Positions 71-57,240 of a DNA stretch of 64,000 nucleotides are shown here, one piece after another. The stretch is from positions 31,894,427 to 31,958,426 of the forward strand of contig OX442315.1 of the NCBI GenBank assembly GCA_949358305.1. The letters are read 5' to 3'. Position numbers and translations under genes: made by a program. Under the pieces are notes generated by a model, which saw nothing but the letters and a program-made list of their open reading frames with translations, was not told the DNA's origin and searched no databases. The DNA comes from Strigamia acuminata. Taxonomy: Eukaryota > Arthropoda > Chilopoda > Geophilomorpha > Linotaeniidae. Numbering within the stretch: the stretch's first letter is position 1; each line of letters begins with the position of its first letter.

Positions 71-3000
71 TTGCAGGAAGCGAGATCCAGGATTAATTCT
101 ATGACAGACTTACCACACGACGCAGTGTCGTTAGTCTCAAAGGTTTCAGTTGGTAAAAACAAGTCGGAAGATAGTATACAATTATTGGTTCACGGAATTA
201 CAGAAGCAGGTATTTTTATATTACAAAAAGGTTACAAAAATGGAGTTTTTACACAAAATATTACAAATTAAGAGCAAAAATGTAATTTTAGTCAGAAAAA
301 ATTAAATTTTAGGCAGAAAAAATGAAATTTTAGGCAGAAAAATGAAATTTTAGGCAGAAAAATGAAATTTTAGGCAGAAAAATGAAATTTTAGGCAGAAA
401 AATGAAATTTTAGGCAGAAAAATGAAATTTTAGGCAGAAAAATGAAATTTTAGGCAGAAAAATGAAATTTTAGGCAGAAAAATGAAATTTTAGGCAGAAA
501 AATGAAATTTTAGGCAGAAAAATGAAATTTTAGGCAGAAAAATGAAATTTTAGGCAGAAAAATTCACATTTAAGAAAAAAATGGGATCTTTTTACCAAAA
601 ACTGAAAATCAATGTGCAAAAACGATACTTTTAGGTATAAAAAGCTCTATTTTTCCGTTTGCTTTCGTGGCGACACCGGCCTGGTAATCACTAATATTAC
701 TTTCGGTGTACTCAATTTTTTTTATCGTTATTTTTCAGGTGTTGAAATAAAGGAAGATCTTGTTCAAGTTCTTCAAAATCGTCTGGACGAGGCTGTTTTA
801 GATGTAATTGCAGTCACGTTGAGTAGAAATCCAATGTGCAAATTGACTGCCGAAGACGTTCAGTTCATTCAGAAGCCAAACGAGCCGCCAAAAGCCGTCA
901 TGCAGTTCACCATTTGTTCCCACGCGCAACAATATCTACAAGCGCTAAGCTGTTACTTGAAGCAGAATTTGCTGCAATTCCTCAACATGCCGAAATACAT
1001 CGATGCGAAACCCGAGTCTCATTTCCAAGACTACAATCCCAGCTGTTCGGAGAGCGAGGCACTCAAGGAAGGCGATGCATTCCTGTACAATCGACCACAA
1101 GGCTCGGGAAACAAAGGTCGAACATAAAACAAAATAAAAGAGAGAAAAATTAATTTTTGTTGTTTTAAATTAGGAATTGCTTTGATTGCGCTGTCGCTCG
1201 TCGATGGTCGTCAAGGAAATCCTGTTCAACATTTTTCTAGTCCCTCTCCGATCCCGCTCGATCATTTAGAAGCGCTTACGAAAAACGATTTCGAGTCGTT
1301 GACGTTCAGCCAATTGTACGTCGCGTCAAAGGAACCAACGAAATTACCAGGCAAGTTTTAAAAAAAAATTAAAAGTGTTTTTAATTTTTTAATATTTGTT
1401 TTCTTTGTAGGGCCGTGGAATTTGATTCAGTTACGGATTTGGCAGCGGGGGAAAATAGATTTAGAACACCTGACAAGCCGACTTTTAAGCGCCGTTCGTC
1501 ACGCATTGTGGGATGTCGTTATGGAATACCGTGTTCTCGTGGCTCCGTTAAACGAATGTCAGTTCACGGAAGGCCCGTCGTTTTGTTCGGAGCCAGTGAC
1601 CCCGATTAAAGGTTCTTTTAATCTCTTTCTTATTATTTTCTAATTTGTTAATCGTTTATTTTAACACGACGCAATTACTAGGTATATTAAATGAATAAAT
1701 AGTTGAAAGGTGATGGGAAAAATAGTACGGATTTATTAACAAGTGAGCAATTCCTTTGTGATTGTCAATTCCAGAACTACGATCGAAATCTTTGGGTGGC
1801 GCTGGTTGGTTGTATCCAAGATTCCCTCTTTCTTCCGATAGTAAGTTTAACCACGTAACTACACGCCCACATCGGGTTTTATTTTAAAATAATTTTCTTT
1901 TTTCTCTTCTGACTTCAAACGTAACTACGTAGTCTTTGTGTGCGTGTTTGGTGTTATTTTCGTGTCTTGTCTTGTCATGTTGTGTGCACAATTTTCGATT
2001 TACGGCAGCATCCGTCGGCCATTTTGGTTCTTACCACGACTCTAATGTAGTTTCTAATGGGTTTTATTTTCTCTAAACAGTTAGAGCAGACTTCTAGCTG
2101 CAGTAATAACACTATAATCGTTGCTATATCTAATGTTTTGGTAATGGTTCATGGGATAGATGATAGATGATAGATATAGCGTAATTATCCGGACGCCATT
2201 AGATTTGTGTTTACTTCCGGTGTCAATAATAATAATTTTTTTCTTCCAGTTTTTATAGTTTTAAAATCTCACAGTTGAGGCATCAATTGAAGTTTTTAAA
2301 AGAGAAATCCGTTAAACCAGCAATAAATTCTAATTAAACAATTTATGCCTTAATGATATAGATATACGTAGCACAGAATATTTGTAATTTGTTTTAAGTG
2401 TGTTATAACTTCTTTCCAACTTTGTCATAAGTTTATCACCGGAGCGTGAGGAAAATATTGGAAAAAATTAAAAATCAACGCAAATAATTTATTTATTTTT
2501 ATTTATTTAGACAAGAAATCATTCGCGACTCAAGCCTTAAATAAAAAGGACAGAGCGCCGTCGCCACTAACATTGGTCCAGGTATTAATTGTTCTAATGT
2601 ATTATCACGCCATTTTGTTTGTCTATTTCATGATTACGTAGCGGTAGTGCCTCATAATTCAATATCCTCTTACATCGTGCGCTCGTTTTTAAATGTTTTT
2701 TATTGTTTTTACTTAATACAAATCCTCCGTGCTTGAGCTAAATCATTGTGTATGTAAACAGGTTAAATTTCGAGAGTTTTCTTCCTCTGTGCCTGATCTC
2801 ATCATCAAAACTCGTTCGCCCGTGGCCTCCCCCAAGGAACCCGTCTCTGCTTTTAAGGTGAAATGTCGCTGCCCTGCATAACTTATCATAAGTCATCTTG
2901 CAAAGCGAACGTTTATAGTATTTCATAACCTAATTAGCAATGGAATCGTTTTGTATCGTTCATAATCGAATTTTAAAAACTAATTTATTTATTTTAAAGT

Positions 3001-6000
3001 TTGTTTTAATTTTTGAATGTTTAAGTCGGTGGGATCTCCGAGCACTTCCGCTCATAAAGGATCTGAAACGGAACTACCGAATGCTGATACTACTGACAGA
3101 GAAAAACTACATCCGATTTTTGCTACAACTATTGTGGATTGGATGGAATTTGCCATTGATCTTGGTATTTTTATTTTAAATTTAAATGTTTTATTTTTAT
3201 TTTAGATATTTAATTTTTTTTTTTTTAGGTGTGCCAACAGTTTGGAAGCATTCTTTGCGTCTTGATTCGCGTTATTCCGTCGATTTTGTGCTTGCGGAGT
3301 TGCACTCGGTGCTAAATACGAATGCAAACGATACAACTTTAAAGGCGTTTAGAAAAGTTAAAATACAAGGAGAAGATGTTTTTCTACCGCATGCTATTTC
3401 ATTGAGTGTTTTGAAGGTCATTACACTTATTTTTCATATTTTTCTCATTTTTTTTCACAAATTTTTCTTTTATTTTTACGAATTTCATTATTTTCCCGTA
3501 TTTTCAATACAGCAAAAAGAAAAACGAGCAGACCACAGCTCAGACAGTGCAAAGAAAGCATCCGGAAGAACTAACGATTTTATATTAATTGGCCGTGACA
3601 CTAAACAGTGGAGAGCTAGCATTAACTACTTGTACGAAGACTCCTGGTCTGAAACTCCATCACTGCTTAATGCTATTAGTAAAAACAAATTCCCCTTTTT
3701 TTTATTTTTATTTTATTTAAATTAATTTAATTTTTTTTAACTTAATTTAGTGCACAGAAACGATCAAAGATTTCCATCAATAGTCGTAAACAATGATCAA
3801 TCGGACCGTGGAGAGAGTACAAGCTGTCCAGCAACAGCCGTTCCTCCAAACGCAGTAGTTACGCCGGGTGCAGTGAGTTTTAGTGGTGTGTCTTTAGCAG
3901 GGGGAGCATCGACCGATGGAAATCTTTTCGTGTTTATACCGCGACAAAAGTTACTCTTAGTTGCAGTTTACGATAAAGTGGTAAGTTTTCATCCGTAAAA
4001 TATTAATTCATAAATTTAATTATTGTTTTTGTGTTCCAGATTGATATTTACGGTTACAACTGGTCTTCCGAACTTGTAAATAAGTTACAGAAACAAACTT
4101 CGCGCTTGGTGCAATGGAATAACGCCAGATCGAAACTGTTGACGAACATTGTGTTGCAAAAAATGGGTCTGTTTCATGAAACTGCCGCCAGGAAATCTGA
4201 TAAGGAAACTTTCGTAATGATTCACTACAAATTAACTGCGAATTTATTCATCATTTCATTTTATTTTGTTTAGAAAGCATCCGAAATCGATTTATTCAAA
4301 TTGACTTCACCGCCGACTCGAGATACGCAACCGGCTTTTCCTTTGCGGCGCCAATCTTCGTCCCAATCGAATTTAAACATAGAAAATGTTTTCCGTGACA
4401 ACCAGCCATCTCGTCCGGTGCATAAGACTCCGTACAACCACATTAAAGATCCGGTTTTAAAACATAGTCAACAAGTTCAGGAATTACGTAACGCTGGGAA
4501 AAAAGGTCTGATCAATTGTAATTAATTAATTGATCTAAAACTAATTTTATTTTATTTTTTATCATAAACTAGAGCAACAAAAAAAATTGAGTAATCTGTT
4601 CCTAAATAGTCCGACACACAGCAACGCGTGCTTAAAGGAGGAAACCTTACAGCTTTTGAAGCAGAGTTCGAGGATCGAGCATTATTGCTTAACGCCACTT
4701 CTGTTTTTACCTCAGTGGAGATTAAAAGTGGCCGGTGCTAGAGATTACACGATTCCTTCGTTCTCACAAGCGGGAATTGTAGAGTCTGTGAGTTAATTAC
4801 AATTATTTTGAAAAGAAAACGTTCAATTTTTAGGTCTAATTTCTTAAAATGTTTTGACAGAGACCTCGCATGGAATCGGAAATACCGACCAAGTTCTTCG
4901 ATCGTCGGAAAAGCATCACGTTACCCATCGGAAACTCGGCTCAAAACTCTCCAATTCTCAAATCGTACAGACCGTCCAACGACGAATATTGGCACGCGCC
5001 ACTTTCCGTCAGTTATATTCATGAATTCACTCAATATTTACAAAATCTTGGATTCGTTCCGCTTCAGCTACGCTCGAACGAAAAGAAAAAGTAAAAAAAA
5101 ATGTTGTTGGAAATTGTGGATTTATGAATTTGATGTTTGAAAATTGTAATTTCAGTGGCGGTGCCGAGGAATCGCAGCAACCGGTCGGCTTGAATTTAAA
5201 AAACAACATGTGTCACGTGCAGAAATCCTTAATCGGCGGCTCCATCATCATACTCGAACTGAGTATCAGCGAGCCCTATTTTTCCGTACGGATGTACTGC
5301 TTGGAAGCGGGACGGATTTATCCCGACCGTACGAAAAATCTCCAAGTAAGTGCGAAATCCGCGAAATGAAAATATTTTTGTTAATAAAATTTTCAATTTT
5401 TTTTTCAGTTTACATCGACGTTTGTCGACGAATGTGACAAGCTGAAGACATTAATTCATCTTCATTCTTTCACTTACGATTACCACTTACGGAGCATTCA
5501 TTCGTACATTTCCGGACGTCAATTGATCTTCCGCCAAGGATATCACCTGACAAGTTTTCTGGAAGATTTTGTGCGATATTACCAAAAATCGCCCAACTTT
5601 GCGTGGAATTTGGTGTCCCAAGGTGAGAAAAATTAATTTAGAAGCTAAAAGTTGTATCAAATGCGAATTTCATCGTTCCAGATATCCTCACCAGCGATAA
5701 CGCGACAACTCCGGCGTGTCTTCTCTACGACCATTTACTCAACCACGACAAATTATACGGAATGCGCGTTCTACGAATGGTGCCGTTCGTCCAGGACCAC
5801 GAGCAAGAGGTCGACAACGAGTACGTGTTGGTTCAAATCAGCAACAAAAAGGTGTCATACAAAGACGGGAACGAAATGCGAAGAACCGACGATTTCGACA
5901 TTAGTTTACTCATTTCCCACGACAAAACACCGCACGACGGCGGCTCCGAGCAATACACACTTGTGTTGAAATACTTCATCATTCTTACGAGTCGACGAGA

Positions 6001-7087: not shown

Positions 7088-8994
7088 TGTTATTAATTTT
7101 TTTTAGAAAAAGTACAATTTCTGGTTTTTAATTTTTTTTTTTATATATATTGTATCAAATTATGTTGCTCAATTTTCTTGAAATACTTGATCATTGCTCG
7201 TGATAATTAAATATTTTGATTGATTTTATTTTAGTATATACGTGAAAGGAGTCGTAAATTAGTATGAAAGAAATAAAATGATGTATTTTTCTCAGTAAAT
7301 TAATTTTTGCTTCGTATTTATTTATTTATTTAGTTATTTATCGGTATTTAAATTTATAACGCGCGGTCATTTTACCTTTCGTCGATAGATGGCGTTAAAT
7401 CGAAACTTTAGTTACGTCACAAAGAGGGAAGTTTGTCTACGTTGTACGGAACTACCCATCAATAAACCTAGAACTTTTTCACCTCATTTTGTTTTCGCAG
7501 CATTGTGATTTATAAGCGATACAATAGACGTGCAAATTTGTTTCATTCTTGGACGAAAAAAGAATGCGAATCGGAGAAGAAAAACACAAGTGAAACGAAG
7601 ATTGAGATTCCATCTGATGTCTTTGTGCTCATTGGACCATCGCTTAGACCTACATTTAAAGAGGAACGATAAAACCCACAAAGATAAACTCAATTTTCTC
7701 ATTTAAAACTGACAAAGGTTTGACTCACATCTGTTTCAAGTGACTGCAAAAATAACAGCTCGTTTTTCTCATAACAGGAAACAAAATGGATTCGTAAAAT
7801 CAAAATTAGGCCCAAAAATGGCTGACGAAATGGACCTGGTTTCAAACATTGAGGTAAAACTATTCATTGAATCATTTACCGGACAAATATTGATGCACAG
7901 AGAGGTTGTTGTAGTGGTTTTTCAATAATTGTTTCAATTATGAGTCATGGAATGGATTGTTTCATGTAAATGTTTTAGTTTTGTATTTCAATATGGATGA
8001 TGGAAGGTAAATAACTAAATATTAGGTGAACGATCCTCAAATTTCACGTTTGAATGAGTGGCAGGAAATTGTCGGATGGTGATAAAAGGAATTTTAATTA
8101 AGCGCACATCACACTCTGGCTTTTGGTTTATTTTATTTGGTTTTATTCATTATTTTGAAACCAAAAAAGACAGAATTACTGGAAATAGTAAACACGCTTG
8201 GAATATTTTTTTTTCAGACATTTAAAATATTGTAGTAGGTGGTATAACAATTTGAGTTTGAAATTTAAGATATACTGATAAGGCCAACTTCATTGAGATT
8301 TTAGGTTAATGTCTATTGAATCAGGATATTGGCTCGATTTGTTGCGAATTGCGATCTATACCATACAAAGAAAGGGAAAAAAATAGTATAGAAATATATA
8401 GGTCGTAAGAAAAAGATTTAAATACGCTAATGACTAGGTATGCGTGAGTTATTGAGTCGTAATCGCAAGTACTGCTAGTTGATATTTGGTTTTACCAGTT
8501 TAGGGACTCGAGTACGGAAGCGTATTGCCACCATACACTTTTTTCTTAGTAAATTCTTGATGTTTTAATTTTTTTTTTACAAAAAAAAAAATTGTGGTGT
8601 AAAATGAGTGGGAAATGTAAATAAAAACATCTCTCCGTTGCTATCTAAAAGTGATCTGAGGGAACCACGGATTAGATAAATGAATTGAATGTTCGAATTA
8701 AACCAGTGAACCGAATCTAATCATAACTCATAAAATTGATTTGAATCTTTATTTATTTTTTTATAATAAAAAAAAAAATTAACCGACACTGATTTTATTT
8801 TATCGTTATTTATGTTTATTTATTTTTCTAAAAATTTCTAAAATTATTTTTTATCCCCCCTAGTGGGGATTAACGGAAAGAAAAAAAAGTACCCAACCCT
8901 AGTGTGTTATTACTCTTAGTTTTGGGGGTTTTGAGGGGTGCAGAGTGCCACAGACAAGGTTATTGAGGTTCAGTGAAAACACAGGTGCAAAAGT
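7088..8994. other. SZT2 3' UTR and intergenic stretch
   Basis: After the SZT2 stop there is an AT-rich 3' UTR with an AATAAA at 7272-7277. The rest, to 8994, has only short unsupported reading frames. A GC-richer patch at 7360-7450, including GATAGATGGCG, could be regulatory. A- and T-runs at 8570-8595 and 8755-8780 look like degraded repeats. I see no gene here. Confidence 0.5.
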
Positions 8995-25144: not shown

Positions 25145-26010
25145 ATGTCCTCCGTTCTCACCGTAATCGCATTTTTTGCTACAATAACCACTTGCGTCTC
25201 CGATTTCGAGTTCGGACCACCCTCGAGTTGCGCGGAGCTCCTCCTTCAAGGAAAAACTCAATCTGGCATTTACACCATCTATCCACGGCCATGGTACAAG
25301 CCTATTCCTTTCCGGGTGCTTTGCGACATGGAAACCGACGGCGGCGGTTGGACGGTAACGCAAAAACTCAAATGGCTAAATTAAACCATTTTATTTAATC
25401 AATTAATACTTCAGGTATTCCAAAGGAGAGACGACTACAACGTGCGCATAAATTTCACACGAAACTGGCACGAATATAAATTGGGATTCGGGGATTTGAA
25501 CGAGGAGTTTTGGTCGGGTAATGAGCACATCTACATTCTCACTAACCAAGATTACGTAACAATGCGAGTCGACTTGGAGGATTTTGAAGGGAACAAACGG
25601 TGGGCCGCTTATTCACAATTTCAAATCGCGGACGAGAAAAATGACTATAAACTATCCATCTCAGGCTACAGCGGAGATGCTGGTTAGTATCGTGATTTGA
25701 TTTTTTGCTTTGATTATACTTATTGAATTATATTTTAGGTGATGGTTTAAGTGGCGTAAACGATAAACTTTTCACGACTTACGACAAAAATGATGTGAAT
25801 AACTGTTCAAAAATGTACAGAGGAGGTTGGTGGTACAGGAAATGCCACAGTGCTAATCTCAACGGACTGTATTTGAAAGGAAACCACACGAGTTATGCTA
25901 ACGGAGTTAATTGGCGGTTTTGGCTCGGTTACCATTACTCGCTCAAAGTTAGCGAAATGAAAGTCCGGCCTACTAATTTCTTATACAGTTCCACCATTAA
26001 TTTAGAATAA
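25145..26010 (+). CDS. Secreted fibrinogen-related protein (FREP)
   Basis: Three exons (25145-25354, 25415-25682, 25739-26010) with matching phases give 249 residues. The first 18 form a signal peptide ([18 protein letters not shown]). Almost all the rest is one fibrinogen C-terminal globe: [66 protein letters not shown], the calcium-site region [10 protein letters not shown] and [15 protein letters not shown], ending with [20 protein letters not shown]. Four cysteines sit where the two family disulfides form. There is no coiled coil or collagen stem, so it is short for the family. Arthropod FREPs act as lectin-like recognition proteins in immunity; the ligand here is unknown. The calcium loop is shorter than the usual DxDND type. 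TATA box at 25081 and AATAAA at 26279 bracket the gene. Confidence 0.92.
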
Positions 26011-26629
26011 TTGGTGTTTGTTGGAAATGTAAATCCATGATATTTATGAATTTATTATTTTGTGTGTATTTCGAATATTATAAGTGTTTTGACAATGTCT
26101 CGTATACGCGCCTTGTCATGTTCATGTCTGCAATTAATTAATTCATCATTCACGTCGTGATGTCATGTGTTTGTTTTATTTTTGCGGTTGATGATGCGAT
26201 ATATCATGTGTTCACTTGTTGTATGTACGACGGTGTAATGGCAAGTCGCTATGCATCGTCGTTGATGTTTAAATTACAAATAAACTTGTTTGTTCTGTTT
26301 ATTTTCACCAAATTGGTATTTATTTGATGTCTCCACCATCCCAAACCTCTACAGTGTATATGGTACCTAGTATATAGCTTATCATTTAAACAATTACCTT
26401 TAGAGGATCATCAGCAGGATTATCCATTGTGTCAGTCATTAATTCGGTACAATAAACGATTTTTTATCGCAATGAACACCTAATTGGAAGAAAAACAAGT
26501 TAATATAGACCAATTAATGATAATTTGAAATTGTGCACCTCCTGCTAAATTTATTAAATAAATTTTAAGTCAGTCAAGTCCTTCTTTCGCGAAAAATAAG
26601 ACAACCGAGTCTACGTCAGTTACGTCAGA
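26011..26629. other. FREP 3' UTR and spacer
   Basis: The 3' UTR ends with AATAAA at 26279-26284 followed by a TG/T-rich element. The remaining 340 bp show no gene. Confidence 0.6.
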
Positions 26630-29389
26630 TACAGGATGAGCCAAATAAACCTGAAGCTTTTGAAAGTATAATTACTCTGTAACTAATTCAAATTTTCATT
26701 TGAAACTAAAACCATTGTACAGAGTTTGAAATGCTATTTTTATATCTGGAAAATTGTATCACTCGGATGCTTTCCTCGTGTGCCACCATTTTGACTAGAG
26801 TAGCCATTGTTGGGGGAAGCAATACCTCATCCAACACCATTTCAGTGGCCATGGAGCAATTGACGGAGCAAAGGAACGCATCTGAGGGAACCGGGCTGAA
26901 GTTGGCACCACATTCACATTCGCCTGAAACTACAGATAGAACAAATCCCATTTTTTTTTTTACCACGGATTTCAATGATTTTTACACCGAAAAATAGAGG
27001 ACTTTCTCCTTAACAAACCCTGAAAAGCACAACTCTCTACCCCTCTTGGTTATCGAGCGGCGACCGTTTCAATATGGCGCAAAAAAAGACTTGTCCTAAA
27101 TTTCCGAATGTGGTGCCACAACTTCAAACTGGAATATTTCGAAAACCTGACGACGGATTTCTTTTTTTGAAAAACCAAATGAAAGAAGACATTCTCCTCT
27201 ACAAACCCTGAAAAGCACAACACTGCAGCCCTCTTAGTTTTCGAGCGGTGACCGTTTCAATATGGCGCCCCAAAAAAAGACTTGTCCTAAATTTTCGAAT
27301 GTCGTGCCACAACTTCAAATTAAAATATTTCAAAAACGTGACGACGGATTTTTTTTCTTGAAAAAGCAAATGAAAGAGGACATTCTCCTCTACAAACCCT
27401 GAAAAGGACAACTATGCAGCCCTCTTAGTTTTCGAGCGGTGACCGTTTCAATATGGCGCAAAAAAAGACTTGTCCTAAATTTTCGAATGTCGTGCCACAA
27501 CTTCAAATTAAAATATTTCGAAAACGTGACGACGGATTTTTTTTCTTGAAAAAGCAAATGAAAGAGGACATTCTCCTCTACAAACCCTGAAAAGGACAAC
27601 TATGCAGCCCTCTTAGTTTTCGAGCGGTGACCGTTTCAATATGGCGCAAAAAAAGACTTGTCCTTAATTTTCGAATGTCGTGCCACAACTTCAAATTAAG
27701 ATATTTCGAAAACCTGACGACGGATTTTTTTTCTTGAAAAAGCAAATGAAAGAGGACATTCTCCTCTACAAACCCTGAAAAGGACAACTATGCAGCCCTC
27801 TTAGTGTCTGATAATTTCTTAGCTTCAGCACTTACACAAATTAACATACTGTTAGATAAAAAAGAATTTGTGCAAGCAAGGTTGCATTGGTTAACAGAAG
27901 CTCTGAAATTATCAATTCCACCTTCTAAGATTATCGATTGCTTTGGAAGTGAGGAAAGCAGGTTTGTCACAGTATTTCAAAAAGAATTTCAAGTGAGAAA
28001 CATAATTACAACATGTTCTGCAGATAGTTCACACCAAAAAACAGATTCAGATGATGGCTTCTTACAACTTTTACAGTTGGGATCAAATAAAATGTGGATT
28101 GGGGAAAGTGATGAGGGTCATTGCAAAACAAGCAACTGCCATGGAATTCGAAAACGCAATATGCAATTCAGAACAATCCCACCAGTTTTGATATTTCGTT
28201 ACTTGGTATTTAGTACTAAAATAAGTGATATACCATCTTCATATAAAATTGGTAATGCTAATTACAAAATTCTGGCAATAGCATTCAATCAACCAAATCG
28301 AAATCACTTTGTAGCGATTGTAAAAATAGGAGGCGTATGGTTTTTGTACGACGGCATGGATCCAGAATTAAAAGAATTTAAAGTAGATATTATTCCAGAA
28401 AATTTTATCATAAATCATGTAATTTTAATTAAATGAACTCGCTCAATCGTCAACTTGTTGAAATATTCCACTTTGAAGCTGGGCCACCACAGTTGCGCCA
28501 TATTGAAACAATCGCCGCTCGAAAACTAACAGGGCTGCAGTGTTGTGCTTTTCAGGGTTTGTAGAGGAGAATGTCCTCTTTCATTTGGTTTTTCAAAAAA
28601 AGAAATCCGTCGTCAGGTTTTCGAAATATCTTAATTTGAAGTTGTGGCACGACATTCAAAAATTAAGGACAAGTCTTTTTTTGCGCCATATTGAAACGGT
28701 CACCACTCGAAAACTAAGAGGGCTGCATAGTTGTCCTTTTCAGGGTTAGTAGAGGAGAATGTCCTCTTTCATTTGCTTTTTCAAGAAAAAAAATCCGTCG
28801 TCACGTTTTCGAAATATTTTAATTTGAAGTTGTGGCACGACATTCGAAAATTTAGGACAAGTCTTTTTTTGGGGCGCCATATTGAAACGGTCACCGCTCG
28901 AAAACTAAGAGGGCTGCATAGTTGTCCTTTTCAGGGTTTGTAAAGGAGAATGTCTTCTTTAATTTGGTTTTTCAAAAAAAGAAATCCGTCGTCAGGTTTT
29001 CGAAATATTCCAGTTTGAAGTTGTGGCACCACATTCGGAAATTTAGGACAAGTCTTTTTTTGCGCCATATTGAAACGGTCGCCGCTCGATAACCAAGAGG
29101 GGTAGAGAGTTGTGCTTTTCAGGGTTTGTTAAGGAGAAAGTCCTCTATTTTTTGGTGTAAAAATCATTGAAATCCGTGGTAAAAAAAAAATTGGGATTTG
29201 TTCTATCTGTAGTTTGGGCGAATGTGAATGTGGTGCCAACTTCAGCCCGGTTCTGAGGGATATAATTTTCCAGACTAAAAATGGCATTTCGCACTCTGAG
29301 CAACGGTTTTAGTTTCAAATAAAAATGTTAATTAATTACAGAGTAATTACATTTTTACAATTATCAAGTCAGTCTGGCTCACTCTGTAT
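26630..29389. mobile_element. 2.8-kb foldback transposable element carrying a USP-like fragment
   Basis: The outer ends are inverted copies: ACAGGATGAGCCAAA at the left and ACAGAGTGAGCCAGA read from the right, followed on both sides by AATTACTCTGTAA and TTTGAAACTAAAACC. Each arm is about 1 kb. The inner parts are tandem arrays of a roughly 188-bp unit (starting ACAAACCCTGAAAAG) with four to five copies on the left (27015-27800) and three to four on the right (28540-29130), in opposite orientation. The unique centre (27801-28440) holds the reading frame described next. No transposase is visible, so it is non-autonomous. A TA or ATA flanks each end. Confidence 0.85.
27804..28436 (+). pseudogene. 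Ubiquitin-specific-protease-like (UCH/C19) C-terminal fragment inside the foldback element
   Basis: A 210-residue open frame with no ATG at its start (it opens at a GTG abutting the repeat array; the first internal ATG is near 28091). The C-terminal half looks like the end of a USP catalytic domain. There is a CKTSNC pair like the zinc-binding fingers, then TIPPVLIFRYLVF in place of the LPPVLILHLKRF-type strand. NRNHFVAIVKIGGVWFLYDG follows, carrying the catalytic-type histidine and the W-x-x-YD block. The catalytic cysteine box is absent, so as it stands it should not be an active protease. It could be a captured host exon or the 3' exon of a spliced element gene. The fold assignment is by eye. 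Confidence 0.55.
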
Positions 29390-38100: not shown

Positions 38101-41100
38101 AGAATGTCGACCATCGAATGAAATACAAATCCAAGAAAGGCCAATTGCCCTTCATAGAACTCAACGGGGATGAAATTGCAGATTCAGATTTGATCATCAA
38201 ACAATTGGGCCAACATTTCAACAAGGATTTAGACGAGGGTTTGACCACTGCCGAAAGAAGTGTGAGCCATGCCTACATGTGCATGTTGGATCATCATACA
38301 GGATGGTAAGATTTAGACTTTTATTAGGAATTAATTCGTTTTCTTCTCTCGCAAATATTTGTTTTGTAATTTTGGGCAATTGAGTACTGAAATGTCACAG
38401 TGTGGTGCTAAATCAATGAGATTCCAATTCCTACTAAAATGTTTTTCACGGTTGCTAAGCAACGGGATGATGTTAAAGAAACTGCTTAGCAACAGCTTTA
38501 TAGCTCAAGATGAATGTTTTTTTCCTTTTTTTCTTTTTCCTTTCTTCTTCTTTTTTCTGATAAAAATTGAGTCAAATGGAAAATTTTAGATCCAAAGGAC
38601 TGAAAATTGCATTTGGTATAAAAAATAAAACAAATTTCAAAGAAAATATTGAGAGAAATAAAGCCCCAAAATGTCTAAGATGTTGGAAAAATCCAGACAT
38701 TGTCTAAAATGTTGAAAAAAAGTCAAAAAATTGTCTAAAATGTTGAAAAAAAGCCAAAAAATTGTCTAAGATGTTGGAAAAATTCAGAAATTGTCTAAAA
38801 TGGTGAAAAAAATCCAGATATTGTCTAAAATGTTGAAAAAAAAGCCAAAAAATTGTCTAAAATGTTGAAAAAAAGCCAAAAAATTGTCTAAATTGTTGGA
38901 AAAAAGCCAAAAAATTGTCTAAAATGTTGAAAAAAAGCCAAAAAATTGTCTAAAATGTTGAAAAAAAGCCAAAAAATTGTCTAAAATGTTGAAAAAAAGC
39001 CAAAAAATTGTCTAAAATGTTGAAAAAAGCCAAAAAATTGTCTAAAATGTTTAAAAAAAAATCCATAAACATAGTCCAAAATTAGCACTACAATAAGAAC
39101 AAACTGCACCAGCATAAACAATGTGGCAAATGCTTTTTCCATTACATCTTCATGTTTCTTTGTTGGATGCTGAACATAACGAGGAATATTTCATTCTGGC
39201 GAGGGGAGAACTCCGAGAGGGAGAAAAAGATATATAGGGAAAACGGTCAACTAAATAACCCTAAAATATTCTCTTGATTACAATCGCATCTCCATCTCCG
39301 CTCTACAAACCTAGTGGAACAAGGGTCATTTTTTCCTCTCTGATTCTTTGTCGCTTACGTACAAAGGGCGTGCATGAAATATAGGGTGAAAAGGGGTTGC
39401 AACAAAAAAAATAATTTGCAATTTTTGACCAGCTGTTGGTAGTTACCCCCGAACCATCAAAAGACGTGTGACACAAGGCACGTGCCTTTTGACTCGTTAC
39501 ACACTCGGCACTTGCATTTCAACCATTTTCCCCCTCCGCGCTCAATTTTCCCACACCCGAGGACCCGAGTTTTGTGTCGTGTCTGCCATTTTCTTCTCCA
39601 CTGGCTGTTTGTGGAGCTTTTAGTTCGCCAAGGTCATGCAAGGGCAATAGGAAATATTCGATTCGAGTCAACAAAATGTGAAAATAAAGCGAAAGATTTA
39701 TTTTTTTTAGAATTTTTGTTTGATTTACTCGTAGATGTTGAGTATCAAGTGGATAATGCGTGGGAGGGTGACGATGTTTTTGTAATGGGGCATTGAAAGG
39801 ATGAATGTTTGGATTTTGTTGATTTTAAATGCTAAGCTGGGAATAAACAAGTTGGATTTTTTGCAGAGAAACAAGGCTTATTTTGAGAATGTATTTCTTT
39901 TTGTGTGAGAGTGTTTGTTTGAACAAGGATTTTCAATAATGAATAGAAAGATAATAGGTCATTACCAAGCCGCGAGAATTTTTCTTTTTTTCTTTCTTTC
40001 ACGACAATGTTGAACAATGCTGTCAAAATGTAAAAAGAATTTTTAAAAAAAAAAATATATATTTTGTATTCATTGAAAAATCCTTTGTTTCAATATATTG
40101 AACAATGTTAACTGTGCCGAGACGCTTTCACCGAATTTTCCGACATTTTAACCGAAAATTAATGACTGAAACAGTGAAACACAAATTAGAATGGAATGGG
40201 GATAAAATAAAAAATAAAAAAAAGTAAATGGGTTGTAATTATTTCCAGCAGATACAGTTGAAGAGTCCGCTGGTTGAATAAATGATGAAATTAATAAAAA
40301 GATTGAAATTTCAAACTATTCACGCAGAACTATTCGCTTTAAAACAAATTACTGTTGAGAAATGAAACTCCAGAAGGGGCAGCGACCACATAATTTACTC
40401 GTTTGTCTCGGATTTCTCATTCAAGCATCGTCACCAATATTTCATGGTCAGAAATAAGAGACATGAAAGGATATTGGTCGAACAGAAGTTTCGTGTTGTG
40501 TGTGTCTCTATGTTGCTATTGTTCTCGTCTCAAAGATTCGCTTCAATGATCGCAGTTTGGCAATAAATTGCAAGTCATGTGGGACGAGATCCATAAAGAA
40601 AGGAAACTTGGAGAAGAGAAGAGAAAAAGAGAAAAGAAATATTCAATACACTGACTCGTATTTTATCCCTGTTTTGTAATCAAAGAAGTACATCTGCATT
40701 TCTTAGAATCAGTTCAATTTAGAAGAAAAATAGCATTTTTTTAATGGACTTATTAAAGATGAAATCCAGAGACTTGGTGAGAAAAAAACGAGATAATAAT
40801 AGCATTGTTCTGGTTAGCAGTGCAGAAAAGCGAACCACAATTACCAATTCTCAAAACAGCCCGATTTGATGCAATTAAATGCAAGTTTGTAATGGAATAA
40901 TTGAGGGGTCTTGAAGATAAAATTCGAAAAATTGTGCAGAATAAGGTTAAATGGTATTAAGTAGTAATCATTTGCCATTTTATCAAAGTGGTAACGACAA
41001 AACTGACTTACAGTATCAACACTTCTTATTTTCTAAATGATCATGTGCACTCAACACTAATGACTACGGGCTAATGCAGTGAAAATGAGCCATGAACTAA

Positions 41101-56640: not shown

Positions 56641-56680
56641 TGGCCATTTTGATTCAATTTTTCACAAACAAAAATTGGAT

Positions 56681-57240
56681 GTTTTTGGTCGAAAATGTCG
56701 AAAATTGGATGTTTTTGGTCAAAAATGTCGAAAATTGGATGTTTTTGGTCAAAAATGTCGAAAATTGGATGTTTTGGTCAAAAATGTCGAAAATTGGATG
56801 TTTTTGGTCAAAAATGTCGAAAATTGTATGTTTTTGGTCAAAAATGTCGAAAATTGTATGTTTTTGGTCAAAAATGTCGAAAATTGGATGTTTTTGGTCA
56901 AAAATGTCGAAAATTGGATGTTTTTGGTCAAAAATGTCGAAAATTGGATGTTTTTGGTCAAAAATGTCGAAAATTGGATGTTTTTGGTCAAAAATGTCGA
57001 AAATTGGATGTTTTTGGTCAAAAATGTCGAAAATTGGATGATTTTGGTCAAAAATGTCGAAAATTGGATGTTTTTGGTCGAAAATTGGATGTTTTGAGTC
57101 GAAAATTGAATGTTTTTGTTCGAAAATTGGATGTTTTTGGTCGAAAATTGTATATTTTTAGTCGAAAATTAGATGTTTTTAATCGAAAATTGAATGTTTT
57201 TGGTCGAAAATTAGATGTTTTTCGTCTAATTGTGATTGTT
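56681..57240 (+). repeat. 30-bp minisatellite grading into 21-bp units
   Basis: About 12 copies of a 30-bp unit (TCGAAAATTGGATGTTTTTG plus GTCAAAAATG) run to about 57070. After that, shorter 21-22-bp units lacking the second part continue to 57240. The array is open in several frames on both strands, giving long spurious repetitive proteins; I do not regard them as genes. Confidence 0.95.

Follow-up and report, generated by a model that had tools for sequence, protein, structure and literature searches.

A foldback transposon of Strigamia acuminata and its probable remnant of a transposase ending in a ubiquitin-protease-like domain

A foldback element occupies positions 26890-29251 of a 64,000-nt stretch of the Strigamia acuminata genome (assembly GCA_949358305.1, contig OX442315.1), referred to here as the window. 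This copy is very probably a non-autonomous, internally deleted, Rehavkus/NOF-like cut-and-paste DNA transposon. Comparison with its relatives shows that the centre is the 3'-terminal part of the transposase open reading frame (ORF) that the element itself carries, and that the window copy is an internal-deletion derivative. An earlier, sequence-only reading had seen a captured host deubiquitinase fragment in the same place. This part of it is not supported, as the best genome matches of the centre are other copies of the element and longer transposase frames.

The frame at the centre is open from stop to stop over 27750-28433, giving 228 codons and confirming the open frame of the earlier reading. 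When the element was simulated 1000 times with a first-order Markov model, 2 runs reached a frame of 228 codons. It holds a His/YD block, with NHF at 28302-28310 and YD at 28347-28352, and begins downstream of the Cys box, which is deleted. A whole-genome translated search with the centre gave 37 matches, and we fetched 20 stretches covering 29 of the 36 that lie outside the window. The best matches after the window itself were C5:7101784 (100%, in a 433-codon frame) and then C13:2298229 (97%). Window positions 27805-29008 are identical to the C5 copy (locus L031), and the lone difference in the centre is at 27804, where the ATG of the C5 copy is GTG at the deletion junction. In the C5 copy the frame runs on upstream through a Cys box, NTCSLDGLL. 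Because of the identity over 27805-29008, the internal deletion is taken as recent, and the open frame of the window copy therefore says nothing about selection. The frame had been taken to suggest recent capture or selection; the recent deletion accounts for it instead.

In larger copies the coding region comprises a PHD finger, a DDE (Asp-Asp-Glu) core and a C-terminal USP-like domain with the Cys box. At locus L032, a 691-codon frame covers the PHD finger (PF00628, E 1.1e-5, above the cut-off) and the beginning of the DDE core, and L034 has a single 732-codon frame with the motifs LYFDATG, DFSW and VENW and the complete C-terminal domain. The PHD finger is deleted in the window copy.

The similarity of the window frame to ubiquitin proteases is present by profile search and weak (Peptidase_C98 E 0.012, UCH E 0.046, both under the Pfam cut-offs). 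A PDB sequence search with the frame returned only weak USP46/USP12 matches (best E 0.04), and the half-domain alone models poorly, with a predicted local distance difference test score (pLDDT) of 43.7. The claim of a USP-like centre that keeps the His/YD block and lacks the Cys box thus holds by way of its relatives, and the fragment itself stays below cut-off. A homologous domain shows the USP fold, and it differs from USPL1/Peptidase_C98 and USP/C19 enzymes in sequence (10-15% identity in the rows listed). The parent domain, too, scores under the Pfam cut-off: 17.2 bits against the required 27 for C98 in L031, with a best E of 1.9e-4 among the nine members of alignment A1. PDB searches with alignments gave only weak USP46/USP12 matches (best E 0.28 for A1 and 0.019 for A4), a PDB sequence search with the fish homologue P0009 gave no match, a homologue search with A1 found none at E 0.001, and two scans of viral contigs yielded none that was confirmed. 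The Cys, His and Asp boxes of the parent domain are kept in USP order in alignment A4, from which P0007 (Tyr for Cys) was excluded; Cys is present in 9 of 9 rows, and His and Asp in all 6 rows that reach them. A VTD-type deubiquitinase was rejected on the order of the catalytic residues.

The foldback architecture with tandem-repeat arms was borne out, and its parts are collected in Table 1. The terminus, ACCGGGCTGAAGTTGG..., starts at 26890 and, on the opposite strand, at 29251. The inverted arms pair over 723 nt with 97% complementarity, plus outer pieces, and Tandem Repeats Finder (TRF) resolved units of about 188 bp, 4.3 in the left arm and 3.5 in the right. Over its outer 567 nt, the left arm differs at 3 sites from that of the C5 copy. 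A 9-bp duplication, TCTGAGGGA, stands at both sides of the element. The outer inverted pieces (26629-26889 and 29261-29389), taken for outer arms in the earlier reading, belong to a separate, older miniature inverted-repeat transposable element (MITE). In a genome search with positions 26600-27000, 55 of 67 matches fell within query bases 27-290, ending at the junction; 11 lay in query bases 289-401, in the foldback arm, and one was the window itself. These counts are lower bounds, with 40 of 350 candidates scored. Joining the two flanks restores an uninterrupted MITE. Three paralogues were examined, and all 3 show this empty site and have a single, somewhat diverged copy of the 9 target bases. 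We therefore rejected the outer arms as parts of the foldback element: the sequence-only reading had merged two nested elements, the foldback inside an unrelated MITE.

Table 1. Features of the foldback element and of the MITE into which it is inserted (window positions)
Feature	Position	Strand	Basis
Left part of older MITE, insertion target, outside foldback element	26629..26880		genomic matches ending at junction; empty site
Left target-site duplication TCTGAGGGA	26881..26889		flank comparison and empty site in paralogues
Left arm: ~4.3 tandem units of 188 bp after the terminus ACCGGGCTGAAGTTGG...	26890..27803	+	inverted-repeat and TRF analysis
Probable transposase ORF remnant, last 210 codons and stop, USP-like domain without Cys box	27804..28436	+	one difference (27804) from C5 copy
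Element 3' end and right arm: degenerate unit 28447-28491, ~3.5 tandem units, terminus	28437..29251	-	inverted-repeat and TRF analysis
Right target-site duplication TCTGAGGGA	29252..29260		flank comparison and empty site in paralogues
Right part of older MITE	29261..29389		inverted-repeat analysis, genomic matches, empty site

The MITE family has many copies, and part of the MITE forms an inverted repeat of its own (114 nt at 79%). Just left of the MITE in the window, at 25738-26007, an exon encodes a fibrinogen C-terminal domain (PF00147, E 3.7e-22). Elsewhere the window contains minisatellites at 276-563 (20-bp units), 38655-39059 (31-bp units) and 56671-57226 (30/21-bp units).

The foldback element is not a single copy. 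Allowing up to 3 mismatches, its 29-base terminus was found at 161 genomic sites (82 forward, 79 reverse), with 0 and 0 for the reversed control, and at least 22 of the sites listed are exact. The arm unit has at least 103 genomic matches, besides the 37 of the centre. A 9-bp duplication flanks 5 of the 6 copies with both ends in hand, namely the window copy and L031 (ACAGTTATT), L032 (AATTAAATG), L039 (GTCAGGTTT) and a copy on C8 (AGATAATTC). The C8 copy consists of arms only, so arms exist without the ORF. One of its arms holds an insert of about 455 bp (L052:100-560), which starts with TG, ends with CA and is bounded by GGCAC repeats; in our reading, the insert resembles a solo long terminal repeat. 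In L033, an inverted repeat of 918 nt at 99.9% (2362-3279 and 7315-8232) runs beyond the element ends.

Several observations weigh against the reading of the window copy as a deleted Rehavkus/NOF-like transposon. The search for a full-length parent recovered larger transposase-coding copies and, among the frames listed for the 20 stretches fetched, no intact, uninterrupted frame from PHD to USP: the frame of L032 is broken, and in L034 the PHD part is missing or displaced. No Pfam DDE or Mutator-like element (MULE) match was obtained in the 7 frames scanned. The sixth copy with both ends, L033, lacks a simple duplication; its flanks are instead identical and inverted. The placement with Rehavkus/NOF is by described features.

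We also compared nonsynonymous and synonymous change (omega, dN/dS) for 14 pairs. Between families, omega was 0.27 (0.17-0.37) for L031 and L034, where linker and domain together cover 427 codons and dS is 1.46, near saturation; 0.19 (0.10-0.30) for the DDE part of L032 and L034 over 220 codons; 0.43 (0.26-0.62) for L031 and L035; and 0.45 (0.30-0.62) for L034 and L035. Saturated dS makes these between-family values rough, and the L031-L036 pair is saturated. Within-family values were 0.79, 0.80, 0.87 and 1.30, and every interval includes 1. Against L032 the window copy shows 7 nonsynonymous and 0 synonymous changes, and against L031 1 and 0. The values fit constraint on the transposase as handed on and none on dead copies.

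Three USP-like frames stand alone on C1: L036:4671-5609 (54838 kb), L045:4513-5241 (49786 kb) and L046:4935-5501 (54815 kb). No transposase match was found beside them within the 9.9-kb stretches. Omega was 0.38 for L036-L045, 0.35 for L036-L046 and 0.45 for L045-L046, where the interval includes 1. The L036 frame has Cys and His boxes, and the end of an adjacent C2H2 zinc-finger frame is a further stretch of sequence common to L036 and L045. These solo frames are candidates for domesticated genes.

Among 14 homologous transposases, the C-terminal end varies. An NTC-type box occurs in 6 of them (P0001, P0005, P0009, P0010, P0012 and P0007, the last with NTY and the Cys lost), and the His box is reached in two of these six, P0009 and P0012. 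P0008 and P0013 carry a canonical USP Cys box at the C-terminal end (UCH E 0.0077 and 0.0056), with matches spanning about 20 residues where the gene models end; the PDB matches listed for P0013 are to its PHD finger only. P0014 alone has a Ulp1-like C-terminal domain (Peptidase_C48 E 0.0022, 18.3 bits where the cut-off is 20.7; the top PDB match is Ulp1 1euv, E 0.21). None of these boxes is present in the remaining five (P0002, P0003, P0004, P0006 and P0011), of which P0011 stops at the first residues of the domain. The spacing between the two D residues is 73-81 in 13 of the 14, the first D not being found in P0012, and the later E was found in all but P0002. PHD fingers were found in P0007, P0011 and P0013. 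In the fish Melanotaenia, residues 649-774 of the transposase-derived gene model P0012 match the PWWP3A/B C-terminal domain (PF20886, E 1e-19), which is either a fusion or a misjoined model. Many of the homologues come from automatic annotation and may be misjoined models, so that exchange of the C-terminal domain is a lead, not proof. A USP-like domain is joined to a DNA transposase both here and in fish.

Comparison with the larger copies shows a deletion that starts in the left tandem array, reaches into the USP-like domain and left the last 210 codons. It may have arisen in transposition or gap repair, and the copy would have entered the MITE with the help of a transposase that acts in trans and recognises the repeated arms. 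Capture of a host USP/USPL1 fragment by a foldback element (Pack-type capture) is, by comparison, extremely improbable. The centre does resemble USP/C98 peptidases, the genome has one C98-type gene above the Pfam cut-off (C4:10385 kb), and the domain must derive from some cellular USP long ago. However, the C4 gene is not among the 37 matches of the centre; no parental host gene outside the element was found, and the matches are headed by element copies, the C5 copy being identical apart from the junction base. The centre is the tail of the transposase ORF of the C5 copy and not a captured host gene, and we rejected this explanation. Moreover, the DDE frame of L034 has this domain at its end, as do those of fish and other homologues, and the domain was therefore in the transposase before the window copy existed.

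For the window copy as a deleted transposon, the truncated frame is presumably without function. That it is expressed and acts in trans, for instance as a decoy that dampens transposition, would agree with its 228 open codons and with repression by deletion derivatives elsewhere, the KP element of P being an example. We regard this as very unlikely, because the frame has no ATG at its start, the half-domain models poorly and the copy is too young for an open frame to count as evidence. With less certainty, the parent domain may be a working isopeptidase that aids transposition, for example by removing ubiquitin or SUMO from the transposase or from chromatin; the PHD finger beside it is of the kind that reads histone tails. 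It could instead be a pseudo-enzyme whose USP fold is kept for binding or dimerisation, with no cleavage. The catalytic residues kept throughout alignment A4 and the low omega of L031 and L034 over linker and domain argue against this, and we consider it rather unlikely.

The window copy is nothing unusual in kind: a foldback transposon stripped of most of its interior and inserted into a MITE. The architecture of its parent, a USP-like tail on a Rehavkus/NOF-like transposase, looks like a further form of a known type, and in place of host-gene capture the picture is of a transposase equipped with a ubiquitin-protease-like domain of its own. We suggest, tentatively, that Rehavkus/NOF-type transposases might end in an active ubiquitin/SUMO isopeptidase that can be exchanged (for a USPL1-like, canonical USP or Ulp1 domain) and is needed for transposition. 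Together with the PHD finger, it would make a chromatin-reading, modifier-removing transposase, and the three C1 loci of this genome may be solo host genes released from such a transposase.

Among known systems, the features fit Rehavkus/NOF-type foldback MULEs. In FB/NOF of Drosophila, foldback arms with tandem repeats surround the NOF gene; such arms are shared by our element, and the fish homologue P0010 is linked to it by name only ("120.7 kDa protein in NOF-FB transposable element"). Rehavkus (Rehavkus-1_TC, Rehavkus-1_HR) resembles our element in its 9-bp target-site duplication and PHD finger, both listed in Table 1 of PMC6446971, and in the tandem units of its inverted termini. As described in the accessible part of PMC10218199, these units are 164 bp in Rehavkus-1_TC of Tribolium castaneum, against 188 bp here. 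For Rehavkus an arthropod or annelid host would be expected, and TCAGG repeats, the telomere unit of beetles, occur at 38 overlapping positions. In the parts of the open-access literature at hand, Repbase entries not covered, no Rehavkus/NOF-type transposase came up that is described as ending in a USP/C98-like domain. Helitrons encode VTD deubiquitinases (accessible part of PMC9741609) and likewise are transposons with a deubiquitinase of their own; they differ in being rolling-circle elements and in the VTD order Asp-x-His, whereas NHF precedes YD here, as in USPs. According to the accessible sections of PMC2836005, Ginger1 transposases end in OTU or Ulp1, some with a PHD finger, there are MULEs with Ulp1, and an IS5-like transposase of Trichomonas carries a peptidase C19; its authors already proposed a part for ubiquitin pathways in transposition. 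Ginger1 and the Ulp1-bearing MULEs share with the present family a transposase with a C-terminal ubiquitin or SUMO protease. Their domain is OTU or Ulp1 in place of a USP/C98-like one, and Ginger1 and the IS5-like element belong to other transposase superfamilies. The occurrence of these domains at the ends of unrelated transposases suggests that mobile elements repeatedly need to counter or use ubiquitin or SUMO in their movement, and the parent of the window copy adds a USP-like tail beside the OTU, Ulp1 and C19 domains of other transposase superfamilies.
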